From an uncultured Bacteroidota bacterium (GTDB taxonomy: Bacteria; Bacteroidota; Bacteroidia; Flavobacteriales; Flavobacteriaceae), in assembly GCA_902546725.1 (NCBI GenBank), contig CACCLB010000003.1, positions 62,001-126,000 on the forward strand: a stretch of DNA of 64,000 nt, given 5' to 3'. A program made the position numbers and the translations under genes. Shown in pieces: positions 18,400 through 23,305 of the stretch (its first letter is position 1; each line of letters begins with the position of its first letter). Under the pieces are notes generated by a model, which worked only from the letters and a program-made list of their open reading frames with translations, had not been told where the DNA came from and did not search any database.

Positions 18400-19032
18400 T
18401 TGATCAACGAGGAAAACATTCAACCCATACAGTTTCTTTTTGAAAAAGAATTGCTTGAAGAGATTCAAAAAGTAAGTACAGTCAAACAAGTCCCCAAAGG
18501 GGAAATCATGATTGATCTAGGTGAGCATGTCAAATTCATACCTCTGCTGTTAGAAGGTGCCATTAAAGTTGTTCGCGAAGACGATTCTGGCGAAGAACTG
18601 CTCTTGTATTTTGTAGAATTTGGCAGTACCTGTGCAATGACTTTGAATTGTTGTTTAGAAGACACCTCTAGTGAAATCAGAGCAATTTGCGAATCCGATA
18701 CTACTTTGATTATGGTTCCTGTAGCCTATATGGACGAATGGCTCACTCAATACAGATCATGGAGGAATTTTATTTTTGAAAACTATCAAAATCGATTAAA
18801 TGAAATGCTCAAAGCTATTGATGCACTTACTTTTTTAAAGTTAGATGAACGTTTAGAAAAATATTTAAAAGATAAAAGTAAAGTGACCAAGAGCAAGTCG
18901 ATAAAAATTACACATCTTGAAATTGCAATGGACTTAAATTCCTCAAGAGTGGTCATTTCAAGACTGCTCAAAAAAATGGAAAATCAAGAAAAAGTCCGTT
19001 TGGGTAGAAACACAATTTCAATCAATTATTAA
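18400..19032 (+). CDS. Crp/Fnr family transcriptional regulator
   Basis: 210 residues from a TTG; no ATG is available before the cyclic-nucleotide-binding-like fold. Residues about 15-130 form the cupin sensor domain and about 155-210 a winged helix with recognition-helix sequence 'HLEIAMDLNSSRVVISRLLKKM'. It contains Cys residues in 'GSTCAMTLNCCLEDTSSEIRAICES' (about 77-98), so a thiol or persulfide signal is conceivable, but no FeS motif of the Fnr type is seen. It is divergent from topA and directly upstream of a sulfur gene set. Two dyads of Crp type precede the next two transcription units (19051 and 20838), so it is the obvious candidate activator. Confidence 0.88.
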   Translation: MINEENIQPIQFLFEKELLEEIQKVSTVKQVPKGEIMIDLGEHVKFIPLLLEGAIKVVREDDSGEELLLYFVEFGSTCAMTLNCCLEDTSSEIRAICESDTTLIMVPVAYMDEWLTQYRSWRNFIFENYQNRLNEMLKAIDALTFLKLDERLEKYLKDKSKVTKSKSIKITHLEIAMDLNSSRVVISRLLKKMENQEKVRLGRNTISINY

Positions 19033-19050: not shown

Positions 19051-19066
19051 TGTAACTTCAGTTACA
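19051..19066. promoter_or_regulatory. Crp/Fnr-type operator upstream of sulP
   Basis: TGTAACTTCAGTTACA: 7-base arms, 2-base centre, perfect dyad. It lies 18 bases after the regulator gene. Its centre is 35.5 bases before the last base of the -7 element at 19087-19094, which puts it at about -41 relative to a start near 19100, the class II activator position. Its right half occupies the slot where the -33 TTTG should be. Confidence 0.65.
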
Positions 19067-19086
19067 CCTATTCTATTCATCTGTAT

Positions 19087-19094
19087 TACATTTG
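19087..19094 (+). promoter_or_regulatory. -7 element of the sulP promoter
   Basis: TACATTTG matches TAnnTTTG and ends 14 bases before the GTG start of sulP. There is no TTTG at -33, consistent with activator dependence. Confidence 0.55.
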
Positions 19095-19107
19095 ATGAAA
19101 ATTACAG

Positions 19108-20832
19108 GTGCTGAAAAAATATTTTCCTTTTTTAGAATGGATCTCGAACTACCGTTCGGATTACTTTAAACGCGACTTGTTAGCAGGTATTACTGTGGCT
19201 GTATTACTGATTCCACAGGGAATGGCATATGCGCTAATTGCTGGACTCCCCCCCATTTATGGTTTGTATGCTGCACTGACTCCACAAATTGTATATGCTT
19301 TTTTGGGGACTTCCAGACAACTGGCTGTAGGCCCTGTAGCCATGGACTCCTTATTAGTAGCTGCAGGATTGAGCGCCCTTGCAATAGTTGAGCCTTCACA
19401 ATACATACAAATGGCCATCCTTTTGGCCCTGCTTATGGGTGCTATTCAACTACTTTTGGGCTTGTTTCGTATGGGGTTTATTGTCTCCTTTTTGTCTAAA
19501 CCTGTGATCAGTGGTTTTACCTCAGCAGCTGCAATTATTATATACTTTAGTCAATTAAAGCATTTATTAGGAATTCAACTCTCTCAAAGCAACCAACTCC
19601 ACATTGTTATTGAATCCATTCTCCAATCTAATGTACCGGTCCATTTCGCAACCTTAATCATTGGTGTACTGAGTGCTGTTCTGATTCTTGTGATTAAAAA
19701 TTGGAATCGTAAAATCCCCTCAGCTTTAATTGCTGTAGTATTGGGAATCTCGTGGGTATATTTTAACGGGTTAGATAAACAAGGTGTGGCTGTAGTTGGT
19801 TTAATACCGCAAGGATTACCCTCATTTCAAACCCCAGTTTTCGAAATTGATACTATTAAACAACTCTTCCCAACAGCCCTTACCTTGGCTTTAGTTGCAT
19901 TTATGGAAGCTATTTCCGTAGCAAAGGCCATAGAAGAAAAACACAAAGAGTATACGGTAGATCCCAACCAAGAACTTATTGCCTTGGGGAGTTCGAATAT
20001 CGTGGGTTCCTTTTTTCAGTCTTATCCTGCCACAGGAGGATTTTCCAGGACTGCTGTAAATGATCAAGCAGGAGCTAAAACTGGGATGGCAGCATTGATT
20101 ACTGCTCTTATGGTTGGCTTAACCTTAATGTTTTTTACCCACTGGTTTTATTATTTGCCAAAAGCAGTGCTAGCATCCATCATCATAGTTGCTGTAGTGA
20201 ATTTAATCGATCTTAAATTTGCTATTCGCCTCTACAAAAAGAGAAAAGATGAATTCGCTATACTGGTTGTAACATTTTTGGCTACCCTATTTTTAGGAAT
20301 TACTGAAGGTATCGTATTGGGTATAGTCATCTCTCTTTTATTGTTAGTTTACAGAGCTTCAAAACCACATCACGCATTTTTAGGAAGAATTGGAACAACC
20401 AATTATTTTAAAAATATCAATCGTTTCCCAGATGAAGTGGTTCAACGAAATGATCTTGTCATACTTCGCTTTGACGCGCAACTCTTTTTTGGTAATATTC
20501 AATATTTTAAAGAACTCGTTTCTAAGGCTATTGAAGAAAAAGAAAATACGGTTAAAGGTTTTATTATTAATGCTCGTGCGATAAATTACATAGACAGTAC
20601 TGCTTCGGAACAACTTTATGAATTGATTCTCAGTCTTCAACAAAAAGGAATCCGAGTGATGGTAGTAGGAGCTATAGGTCCAGCAAGAGATTTATTAATT
20701 AAAAGTAAAATCATCCAAATCTTAAAAAAACAAAATTTATTCATTACCTCAGGTGATGCCACTGATGACTTTGATGGAGTTGCCAAAAAAACCGCCTTGC
20801 AAAAAAAACTCAGCCGTCAGAGTAATCCATAG
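19108..20832 (+). CDS. SulP family anion permease with STAS domain
   Basis: 574 residues beginning at GTG; the nearby ATG at 19095 is out of frame. SulP transmembrane domain about residues 10-400 ('GITVAVLLIPQGMAYALIAGLPPIYGLYAAL' near 30, 'ATGGFSRTAVNDQAGAKTG' near 310), then a STAS domain about 425-555. The domain is intact, in contrast to the broken SulP gene at 3266-5103, and the sequences are clearly different subfamilies. Placed between a Crp/Fnr regulator and persulfide-handling genes, it most likely moves sulfate, sulfite or another sulfur oxyanion, but bicarbonate transport cannot be excluded. Confidence 0.93.
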   Translation: MLKKYFPFLEWISNYRSDYFKRDLLAGITVAVLLIPQGMAYALIAGLPPIYGLYAALTPQIVYAFLGTSRQLAVGPVAMDSLLVAAGLSALAIVEPSQYIQMAILLALLMGAIQLLLGLFRMGFIVSFLSKPVISGFTSAAAIIIYFSQLKHLLGIQLSQSNQLHIVIESILQSNVPVHFATLIIGVLSAVLILVIKNWNRKIPSALIAVVLGISWVYFNGLDKQGVAVVGLIPQGLPSFQTPVFEIDTIKQLFPTALTLALVAFMEAISVAKAIEEKHKEYTVDPNQELIALGSSNIVGSFFQSYPATGGFSRTAVNDQAGAKTGMAALITALMVGLTLMFFTHWFYYLPKAVLASIIIVAVVNLIDLKFAIRLYKKRKDEFAILVVTFLATLFLGITEGIVLGIVISLLLLVYRASKPHHAFLGRIGTTNYFKNINRFPDEVVQRNDLVILRFDAQLFFGNIQYFKELVSKAIEEKENTVKGFIINARAINYIDSTASEQLYELILSLQQKGIRVMVVGAIGPARDLLIKSKIIQILKKQNLFITSGDATDDFDGVAKKTALQKKLSRQSNP

Positions 20833-20837
20833 AACTA

Positions 20838-20853
20838 TGTAACTCAAATAACA
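20838..20853. promoter_or_regulatory. second Crp/Fnr-type operator, upstream of the persulfide dioxygenase gene
   Basis: TGTAACTCAAATAACA: the left half is identical to that of the dyad at 19051, the right half matches it at 4 of 6 positions. Its centre is again 35.5 bases before the end of a TAnnTTTG element (TAATTTTG, 20874-20881). The same spacing at two promoters argues for one activator controlling both. Confidence 0.55.
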
Positions 20854-20873
20854 CTAGACTATCAGAACTTTAT

Positions 20874-20881
20874 TAATTTTG
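20874..20881 (+). promoter_or_regulatory. -7 element of the MBL/rhodanese-yeeE operon
   Basis: TAATTTTG matches TAnnTTTG, 20 bases before the ATG at 20902. No -33 TTTG; the operator half site lies there instead. Confidence 0.5.
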
Positions 20882-20901: not shown

Positions 20902-22311
20902 ATGAAAATTGAACAAATCTATACTGGATGCTTGTCTCAGGGCGCCTATTATATTGAAAGCAATGGAGAAGCTGCCATTATCGATCCTTTAAGAGAGGTT
21001 GCCCCCTATATTGAAAAAGCTAAAAAAAACAATGCTTCCATAAAATATATATTTGAGACTCACTTTCATGCAGACTTTGTTAGTGGTCATGTAACCTTAG
21101 CTAAAGAAACTGGAGCAACTATTGTTTATGGACCTCAAGCAACCACAGGATTTGATGCACTTATAGCAAAAGATCAACAGGAATTTAAAATTGGAGCGAT
21201 AAGCCTTACTGTTCTTCACACTCCGGGGCACACTATGGAAAGTACAACCTATTTGCTCCGAGATGAAAACGAAAAAGACATCGCTATTTTTAGTGGTGAC
21301 ACCCTTTTCTTAGGGGATGTTGGCCGTCCAGATTTGGCTCAAAAAGCGGCAGACCTCACCCAAGAAGATTTGGCTGGAATACTGTATGAAAGTCTTAGAA
21401 AAAAAATCATGCCCTTGGCAGATGATGTACTTGTATATCCTGCCCATGGAGCTGGTTCTGCTTGTGGTAAAAACTTGAGCAAGGAAACTGTTGGTCCATT
21501 AGGCGAGCAAAAAAAAACAAATTATGCTTTAAGAGCGGATATGACAAAGGAAGAATTCATCAAGGAAGTCACTGATGGTCTTCTTCCGCCTCCTCAATAT
21601 TTCCCTTTAAATGTAAAAATGAATAAAGAAGGATATGAGGATATTCAAACTGTTTTAGAATCTGGAACAAAACCGCTTTCTGCAGAGGCCTTTGAAGTTG
21701 CTGCCAACGAAACAGCTGCCATAGTTCTAGATGTAAGACACCAAGACGATTTCGCAAAAGGTCATATACCCCAATCTATTTTTATCGGAATTGATGGTGG
21801 ATTTGCTCCTTGGGTAGGTGCTATGGTTGGAAATGTAGCTCAACCCATTTTATTAGTCACACCTGAAGGAAGAGAAGAGGAAACCGTGACCCGTTTAGCG
21901 CGGGTTGGATTTGACAATACTCTAGGCTTTTTAAAAGGTGGAATTGAGGCTTGGAAAAATGCAGATAAGCAAGTTGATGTTGTTGAAGGAATCGATGCTG
22001 ATGAACTTAAGAACATCATTGAAAAAAATAAAATTGAAATTTTCGATGTTCGAAAACCAGGGGAATACCTTTCAGAGCACATAACTGAAGCCGATAACAC
22101 CCCACTTGATTTTATAAACGATCACATGAGCGAATTCCCATCAAATAAACCCTTTTATATACACTGTGCAGGTGGCTATCGCAGTATGATAGCAGCGTCC
22201 ATTCTCAAGAGTAGAGGAATTCACAATTTAATCGATGTCAAAGGAGGTTTTGGGAAAATAAAGGAGTCTGGTATTGAAATTTCAGATTACGTTTGCCCTT
22301 CAACACTATAA
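20902..22311 (+). CDS. MBL-fold persulfide dioxygenase with two rhodanese domains (CstB-like)
   Basis: 469 residues in three parts. Residues 1-240 are a metallo-beta-lactamase fold with 'THFHADFVSGH' (His54, His56), His110 in 'HTPGHTMES' and Asp133 in 'FSGDTLFLGD'. His54, His110 and Asp133 fit the mononuclear iron site of persulfide dioxygenases. Residues about 255-355 are a rhodanese domain with no Cys in the active loop ('LVTPEGRE'). Residues about 365-465 are a second rhodanese with the catalytic Cys422 in 'HCAGGYRS'. This order (dioxygenase, dead rhodanese, live rhodanese) is that of CstB, which turns persulfides into thiosulfate/sulfite. The enzyme is cytoplasmic and probably heads an operon with the two YeeE genes. 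Confidence 0.9.
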   Translation: MKIEQIYTGCLSQGAYYIESNGEAAIIDPLREVAPYIEKAKKNNASIKYIFETHFHADFVSGHVTLAKETGATIVYGPQATTGFDALIAKDQQEFKIGAISLTVLHTPGHTMESTTYLLRDENEKDIAIFSGDTLFLGDVGRPDLAQKAADLTQEDLAGILYESLRKKIMPLADDVLVYPAHGAGSACGKNLSKETVGPLGEQKKTNYALRADMTKEEFIKEVTDGLLPPPQYFPLNVKMNKEGYEDIQTVLESGTKPLSAEAFEVAANETAAIVLDVRHQDDFAKGHIPQSIFIGIDGGFAPWVGAMVGNVAQPILLVTPEGREEETVTRLARVGFDNTLGFLKGGIEAWKNADKQVDVVEGIDADELKNIIEKNKIEIFDVRKPGEYLSEHITEADNTPLDFINDHMSEFPSNKPFYIHCAGGYRSMIAASILKSRGIHNLIDVKGGFGKIKESGIEISDYVCPSTL

Positions 22312-22331: not shown

Positions 22332-22889
22332 ATGGAATGGATTTTTAACCCTTGGCCTTGGTATATCGGTGGTCCCATGATTGCCCTAATCATGTTTTTA
22401 CTACTCTATTTTGTTAAAAATTTTGGAATGTCTTCAACTTTAAGAACGTTTTGTACCATCTGTGGTGCGGGAAAATCAAATGAATTCTTCAATTTCGATT
22501 GGAAAACTCAACAATGGAATTTGATGGTCTCAGCAGGAGCAATAATTGGAGGTGCACTTGCTGCCCATTTCCTAAGTACTGATTCCAGTGTAGCCATCCA
22601 TCCTGATACTATCACTAAACTTCAGGACTTAAATATTAACAGTGCGGGTGTGTCCTATCTTCCTGAAGAACTTTTCAGTATGCAAGCTTTAATGCAACCT
22701 AAGGTACTCCTCATCTTGTCAATTGGAGGTTTTTTAGTTGGCTTTGGAGCTCGCTATGCGGGAGGTTGTACTTCTGGACATGCTATTTCTGGTCTGAGCA
22801 ATCTTCAATTGGTTTCTCTTTATGCAGTCATCGGTTTCTTTATCGGAGGCCTTTTTATGAATCACCTATTACTTCCCTATATACTTTAA
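22332..22889 (+). CDS. YeeE/YedE family sulfur transporter, first half
   Basis: 185 residues with four or more membrane helices. The family signature with its conserved Cys lies in 'RYAGGCTSGHAISG' (Cys146). YeeE/YedE proteins import thiosulfate (TsuA) or polysulfide-type sulfur (PmpA/PmpB). Here the family is split into two short proteins as in PmpA/PmpB. The gene follows the CstB-like gene by 20 bases and precedes its partner by 2 bases, so they are certainly cotranscribed and probably form one transporter. Confidence 0.88.
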   Translation: MEWIFNPWPWYIGGPMIALIMFLLLYFVKNFGMSSTLRTFCTICGAGKSNEFFNFDWKTQQWNLMVSAGAIIGGALAAHFLSTDSSVAIHPDTITKLQDLNINSAGVSYLPEELFSMQALMQPKVLLILSIGGFLVGFGARYAGGCTSGHAISGLSNLQLVSLYAVIGFFIGGLFMNHLLLPYIL

Positions 22890-22891
22890 GC

Positions 22892-23305
22892 ATGAGACTA
22901 TTTATATTTTTTTTAACCGGAATTCTATTTGGAATAACCATGTTTAAGTCAGAAGCTGCATCCTGGTTTCGTATCTATGAGATGTTTCAATTTAATTCGT
23001 TTCACATGTATGGTATCATTGGATCTGCTTTAGCTTTAGGGGTACTAATGATTCAAATAATCAAACGCTATAAGATAAAATCGGCCTACGGAGAACCTAT
23101 TGTAATTCCTGATAAAGCTATGAGCTTTTCAAGATACGCCTATGGTGGGATTATCTTTGGTTTAGGTTGGGGATTAGCTGGGGCTTGCCCTGGACCAATA
23201 TTTACTCTTATTGGAGCAGGCTTTTACCCCATACTGGTCGTTTTGGTTTTTGCAATATTGGGAACTTGGGTGTATGGATTAATTGCCAAGAAACTTCCTC
23301 ATTGA
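22892..23305 (+). CDS. YeeE/YedE family sulfur transporter, second half (DUF6691 type)
   Basis: 137 residues with about four membrane helices. I chose the ATG at 22892, two bases after the stop of the first half; reading further upstream would overlap that gene by about 120 bases in another frame. The conserved family motif is 'GLAGACPGPIFTLIG' with Cys99. Together with the preceding gene it gives the two signature Cys segments needed for sulfur passage. Partner of the CstB-like enzyme in handling thiosulfate or persulfide. Confidence 0.88.
   Translation: MRLFIFFLTGILFGITMFKSEAASWFRIYEMFQFNSFHMYGIIGSALALGVLMIQIIKRYKIKSAYGEPIVIPDKAMSFSRYAYGGIIFGLGWGLAGACPGPIFTLIGAGFYPILVVLVFAILGTWVYGLIAKKLPH

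Follow-up and report, generated by a model that had tools for sequence, protein, structure and literature searches.

What do two inverted repeats do that lie at the same distance ahead of two promoter-like elements, in a set of sulfur genes next to the gene of a putative regulator? The window analyzed is a 64,000-nucleotide stretch of a contig from an uncultured marine Flavobacteriaceae bacterium. Its forward strand carries crp, encoding a Crp/Fnr-family regulator (18400-19032, TTG start as listed), followed by sulP (19108-20832, GTG start), which encodes a sulfate-permease-family transporter with a STAS domain (TIGR00815, 491.5 bits against a cut-off of 380.45; PF00916 and PF01740). Next come a persulfide dioxygenase-like gene (PDO, 20902-22311) and two YeeE-type genes, the first of the Sulf_transp type (22332-22889; PF04143, 63 bits), the second of the DUF6691/Sulf_transp type (22892-23305; PF20398, 45 bits; PF04143, 33.2 bits). 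The PDO protein features a metallo-beta-lactamase fold (PF00753) and two rhodanese stretches (PF00581). Its best solved relatives are 3tp9 (2.9e-65) and 3r2u (1.3e-55), ETHE1 (4chl) matching at 6.1e-15; 3r2u, labelled merely 'metallo-beta-lactamase family protein' by the structure search, is presumably CstB. A Crp/Fnr gene directly upstream and sulfur gene neighbors had been claimed in an earlier note on this DNA, and reading frames and profile matches agree with it.

Operator 1 (TGTAACTTCAGTTACA, 19051-19066, forward strand, centre 19058.5) is a perfect dyad located 18 bp past the crp stop codon; the putative -7 element of sulP (TACATTTG, 19087-19094, inferred to cover -12 to -5) follows after 20 bp. 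Operator 2 (TGTAACTCAAATAACA, 20838-20853, same strand, centre 20845.5) is an imperfect dyad, matching at 10/12 residues, and the same 20 bp separate it from TAATTTTG (20874-20881), the predicted -7 element of the PDO operon promoter. The two dyads and the two TAnnTTTG elements lie where the earlier note placed them, each centre being 35.5 bases ahead of the last base of its element, and each intergenic region holds one TAnnTTTG only. The lack of a -33 element is likewise confirmed, as no TTG occurs 17-24 bases upstream of either TAnnTTTG, and the operator fills that place. According to PMC9723704, TAnnTTTG spans -12 to -5 in Flavobacterium psychrophilum. By this numbering, operator centres fall at -40.5 when the gap is 20 bp, as in the genus under study, and at -41.5 when it is 21 bp, the commonest arrangement in relatives; transcription would start near 19099 (sulP) and 20886 (PDO). 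The class II geometry near -41 that had been proposed is supported by these positions and by the fixed distance from dyad to element.

The perfect dyad occurs once in 1.70 Mb of the genome of origin. Dyads with up to two mismatches are found 4 times in the window against 2.42 expected, and 54 times across the genome, where the backward control gives 104. Site 2, which has two mismatches, is by itself at chance level when judged as a dyad, and since two-mismatch dyads are below the control no wider regulon is claimed for this genome. The composite of relaxed dyad, 20 bp and TAnnTTTG, a pattern drawn up after both sites were known, has two occurrences in the window, whereas 0.00 are expected from 100 shuffles.

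Site 1 was monitored in the genus. A search of 36 other genomes gave a crp orthologue in 17 (58-93% identity), always with sulP as the next gene; the window makes 18 crp-positive genomes. All 18 retain site 1, as a 12/12 dyad in 10 and an 11/12 dyad in 8. The gap to TAnnTTTG is exactly 20 bp in 17 of them, the remaining locus (L048) having TAnnTTTA at 21. Column conservation is 0.963 in the dyad, 0.528 in the loop, 0.633 in the spacer and 0.463 upstream, and none of 10,000 draws of 12 non-dyad columns was as conserved as the dyad.

In 80 named crp loci, four of which belong to already-counted genomes of the genus, 135 dyads matching at 11/12 residues or more were found against 4 in the backward control, perfect dyads numbering 16 against none. 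TAnnTTT lies 19-23 bp off at least one side of 104 of the 135. Lack of conservation of dyad and spacing in relatives had been named in advance as evidence against the proposal; both are conserved in the genus and in 58 of the 80 loci, and the proposal survived. Offsets to TAnnTTTG, counting both strands of the named loci, are 21 bp in 65 cases, 20 bp in 5, 22 bp in 2 and other values in 5. The gap of 20 bp in the genus (19067-19086 in the window) and of 21 bp in most relatives (L140-L219) denotes a one-base shift. A G is present at -33 in 43 of the 65 promoters with a gap of 21; it may be what is left of TTG, with the final base of that triplet merged into the proximal half site GTTAC(T)G. The other 22 loci have no dyad of at least 11/12 plus promoter. 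Upon re-examination of 24 such or dyad-sparse loci, Winogradskyella included, 15 revealed a dyad of at least 9/12 located 19-21 bp ahead of TAnnTTT, as TGTGACAAATGTCACA ahead of PDO in Winogradskyella loci L197 and L209.

A strict composite search of 395 Flavobacteriales genomes gave 81 hits, spread over 52 genomes, while the control gave 2; 27 of the 81 reside within 10 kb of crp. Where crp has a strong match, 34 of 62 genomes have composite sites; where it has none, 18 of 333 do. Phylogeny inflates this contrast, and the latter 18 suggest that such sites may also serve other members of the family. In two places (G308:C2:71763-71835 and G359:C1:1076499-1076572) a single dyad is correctly spaced from two divergent TAnnTTTG elements. 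Among 12 crp loci of other families (L049-L060, 34-51% identity), a dyad of at least 11/12 is present in 5 and absent from 7. No dyad of this quality precedes any of 14 PDO genes in 13 other-family loci, one of which (L131) has a 9/12 dyad at 21 bp. Given how sparse dyads are in other families, the arrangement does not appear to be order-wide; in the loci surveyed it thins out outside close relatives.

Genes downstream of the sites were listed for 96 dyad-promoters, lying no more than about 7 kb from crp and followed by a readable gene, names being assigned by Pfam for some and by inspection for the remainder. PDO-type genes (23) and TauE/SafE genes (20) are the most abundant, followed by SulP (11), rhodaneses without a PDO part (9), DUF983-like (9), crp-like (5), peroxiredoxin-like (4) and CydA-like (3) genes; the 23 PDO-type genes and the 9 rhodaneses fall into one cluster of 32. 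YeeE, cytochrome c-like and fatty-acid-hydroxylase-like genes were found twice each, and rarer ones include an SQR-like gene and a molybdopterin oxidoreductase gene, once each. The 29 readable genes at genome-wide composite sites comprise 7 PDO, 2 TauE, 1 YeeE and 1 SulP (that of the window); by inspection, 6 more look like single rhodaneses and 4 are TolC-like, the rest being mixed. By their annotation, the candidate targets mainly serve sulfide, persulfide and sulfite handling, and the position of operators ahead of such genes supports a putative role of the regulator in sulfide and persulfide detoxification. The 5 crp-like genes noted above are preceded by dyad-promoters in the named loci; no sign of autoregulation was seen in the window, the best dyad match upstream of crp being 7/12 only.

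Site 2 varied among the 18 genomes. It matches at 10/12 residues or more in 9 and at 9/12, in register, in 2; it is decayed in 3 (L032, from the closest relative, G021; L034; L046), and finds no room in 4 (L039, L040, L042, L045), in which sulP and PDO are 25-30 bp apart. Site 1 being kept in 18/18 and site 2 patchy, alignments indicate that the former is the core element, the latter a lineage-variable second entry point. The claim that one activator turns on sulP and the PDO/YeeE operon separately is thus supported for site 1, and in part for site 2, which is imperfect and lineage-variable and could not be found in 7 of the 18 genomes. Site 2 could be a relic or a chance match, the PDO operon being read through from the sulP promoter. 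This is unlikely, though a reading to be reckoned with: two-mismatch dyads are at chance level, and site 2 is decayed in three genomes and has no room in four. Yet 11 of the 18 genomes have a dyad of 9-11/12 in register, 20-21 bp ahead of TAnnTTT[GA]; dyad columns are 0.926 alike vs. 0.53 for the loop, albeit among nine genomes chosen for matching; and the PDO-type genes make up 23 of the 96 genes at named-locus dyad-promoters. Operator 1, in turn, might act in crp RNA, as a hairpin or terminator, or be bound by a repressor. Its RNA can pair (six pairs, -3.6 kcal/mol), it sits 18 bp past the crp stop, and repression is compatible with the sequence. Still, no T-run follows operator 1, the 16 bases of site 2 do not fold (0.0), and similar dyads precede many genes elsewhere, so a terminator or hairpin role for site 1 was rejected. 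The fixed 20/21 bp spacing and the missing -33 TTG fit activation, and this whole group of explanations is very improbable. Binding of the regulator to the dyads, and activation instead of repression, are what we infer from the arrangement.

Whether the dyads belong to the neighboring regulator can be judged from genomes in which it is missing. Of 19 genus genomes without a crp orthologue, 15 provided a sulP locus, 14 of them readable upstream; most are incomplete (54-91%), yet the sulP-PDO locus itself is present in the readable ones. No dyad of at least 10/12 was found within 600 bp of sulP in 13 of the 14. In the exception, G001 (L112, 3842), TGTGACAAAAGTTACA resides ahead of sulP at the 20 bp spacing, an altered operator that some other member of the family may have adopted. 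On a tree of PDO proteins (17 crp-positive, 11 crp-negative genomes), crp changed at least 4 times on well-supported branches, most simply by loss. Over four independent pairs, an average of 3.8 have the operator tracking the regulator and none shows the reverse (p 0.125, four pairs being too few for significance). A relaxed composite search of 38 genus genomes (40 hits against 8 in the control) led to an unlinked candidate target, a gene of the fatty-acid-hydroxylase family (PF04116) found in 18 genus genomes. It is preceded by a dyad of 9-11/12 in 11 of 11 crp-positive genomes, with TAnnTTTR 20-21 bp further on in 10 of these, vs. 0 of 5 crp-negative ones. Leaving out the 7 crp-positive genomes that led to the gene, the count is 4/4 vs. 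0/5 (exact p 0.008, ignoring shared ancestry). The dyad is present in G005, whose regulator status is unreadable, and partial (8/12) in G027, 54% complete and of unknown status; the gene was not found in the genome of origin, which is 75% complete. As it is not adjacent to crp, the association of operator and regulator argues for action in trans.

The upstream regions of this gene (L279-L283, L286-L292, on unlinked contigs) carry the operator at the promoter distance seen for sulP and PDO; the reason for a fatty-acid-hydroxylase-family enzyme in a sulfur regulon is unexplained. Dyads with promoter spacing were also seen 131 and 201 bases before sulfatase-like genes, so named by inspection, in G032 and G033 (L263 1488, L270 1501).

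A different Crp/Fnr protein, for instance a more global regulator, might bind the dyads, the adjacent gene being a bystander. A paralogue 37% identical to the regulator is encoded on contig C4 of the same genome, and the 18 genomes with composite sites that lack a strong crp match would be in line with this. Against it, the operator is missing where the adjacent regulator is missing, both at sulP and at the unlinked gene; G020, which has the paralogue only and no crp orthologue, features the dyad at neither place; and some paralogues have a different dyad past their own stop (TGTGACTAAAGTCACA in L066). Involvement of another protein is hence improbable, and the assignment to the neighboring Crp/Fnr protein made in the earlier note is supported by the joint absence of operator and regulator at two loci. 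The dyads are, very probably, operators of the adjacent regulator, which would activate sulP and, from the weaker site 2, PDO-yeeE-yeeE in class II fashion.

The regulator is, by profile, a divergent member of the Crp/Fnr superfamily. PF00027 (cNMP_binding) scores 28.0 bits against a cut-off of 27.5, HTH_Crp_2 25.6, just under 27, and the family profile matches 3dv8, NtcA and CRP chains at 6e-23 to 5e-14 across both domains. The recognition helix reads SSRVVISRLLK. Features of cAMP-type CRP were not found: PRK11753 scores 47.7 bits against a cut-off of 266, and in the alignment to CRP 4bh9 the residues Glu72 and Arg82, which we take to be those binding the cAMP phosphate in CRP, face a gap and a Ser of the profile, respectively, and are not kept. 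FNR oxygen sensors hold a [4Fe-4S] cluster by an N-terminal group of cysteines and one later Cys; the regulator has no N-terminal cysteines. Its cysteines are at 78, 84, 85 and 97 only. Cys78 and Cys84 are present in 81/81 sequences and Cys85 in 80/81; in a more distant set the figures are 27/27 (C78), 25/27 (C84) and 23/27 (C85), and Cys97 is found in few sequences outside the genus. The conserved cysteines fall in the segment that binds the cAMP phosphate in CRP. Since Cys78 and Cys84 never vary among the 81 sequences, a thiol or persulfide signal is plausible, and a thiol switch sensing reactive sulfur is the leading guess, for which the chances look even. The fuller model is more tentative: a flavobacterial Crp/Fnr subfamily, in which Cys-x5-Cys-Cys replaces the cAMP-type cassette, may sense persulfide directly and act as class II activator of a sulfur-detoxification regulon and of the fatty-acid-hydroxylase-family gene. 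If true, this would make it the first member of the superfamily known to us to sense reactive sulfur by thiols. The solved Crp/Fnr protein 3dv8 has Cys-x5-Cys at the same alignment place, and the motif may extend beyond this group. Glu-type paralogues have dyads of their own directly past their stop (TGTGACTAAAGTCACA, L066:5424; TGTGATTTAAGTCACA, L064). The code that they suggested (Val184 for TGTAAC, Glu184 for TGTGAC) is not clean, being contradicted by Glu-type L063, with TGTAACAAAAGATACA past the stop, and by Val-type L197 and L209, with TGTGACAAATGTCACA, and was not used as evidence. In PMC8510549 a Flavobacteriales homologue is hypothesized to be MalR-like and carbon-sensing, a different proposal.

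In the mechanism proposed, a regulator dimer would bind TGTAAC-N4-GTTACA at about -41, with its promoter-proximal half site where a -33 TTG would otherwise lie, and bring RNA polymerase to the -7 element TAnnTTTG. The strong site 1 would switch on sulP, the weaker site 2 PDO-yeeE-yeeE from its own promoter in this and some related species, and in many other flavobacteria related regulators would serve a wider sulfur regulon (PDO, TauE, SulP, YeeE, rhodaneses and others). The signal, putatively reactive sulfur, would be sensed via Cys78, Cys84 and Cys85. Searches of the open-licence literature found no description of a Crp/Fnr protein that regulates persulfide dioxygenase in Bacteroidota, nor any account of how marine flavobacteria switch on sulfide and persulfide handling. 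A regulator-operator pair at an exact position provides a testable model for activator-dependent transcription from an unusual Bacteroidota promoter, and the dyad followed after 20-21 bp by TAnnTTTG a read-out for candidate reactive-sulfur regulons in genomes.

As a mechanism, class II Crp/Fnr activation would be nothing new, while regulator, operator and regulon seem undescribed. In class II CRP and FNR promoters of E. coli the dyad lies near -41.5 over the upstream promoter element, and a -10-type element is kept. Dyad position, overlap with the upstream element and retention of the downstream one are alike here; TAnnTTTG in place of TATAAT, the operator TGTAAC-N4-GTTACA, and the cAMP and [4Fe-4S] features, not found in the window regulator, set the two apart. 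Cyanobacterial NtcA binds GTA-N8-TAC, a pattern that the window operator fits, and R-V-x-x-x-R is common to both recognition helices in the alignment; targets and phylum are different, as probably is the signal, judging by the Cys-rich cassette. The cst operon of Staphylococcus aureus (CstR/CstB) places TauE and a fusion of persulfide dioxygenase and rhodanese in the same regulon, as flavobacterial loci appear to do, under a CsoR-family repressor rather than a putative Crp/Fnr activator. In Acinetobacter baumannii, according to PMC7315123, BigR controls yeeE-yedE-pdo2 and FisR activates a sulfide operon. Persulfide dioxygenase and YeeE-type transporters are placed there, too, under a dedicated reactive-sulfur regulator; yet BigR is a repressor and FisR a sigma-54 activator, neither of the Crp/Fnr type, and in the flavobacterial arrangement SulP would be the first target.
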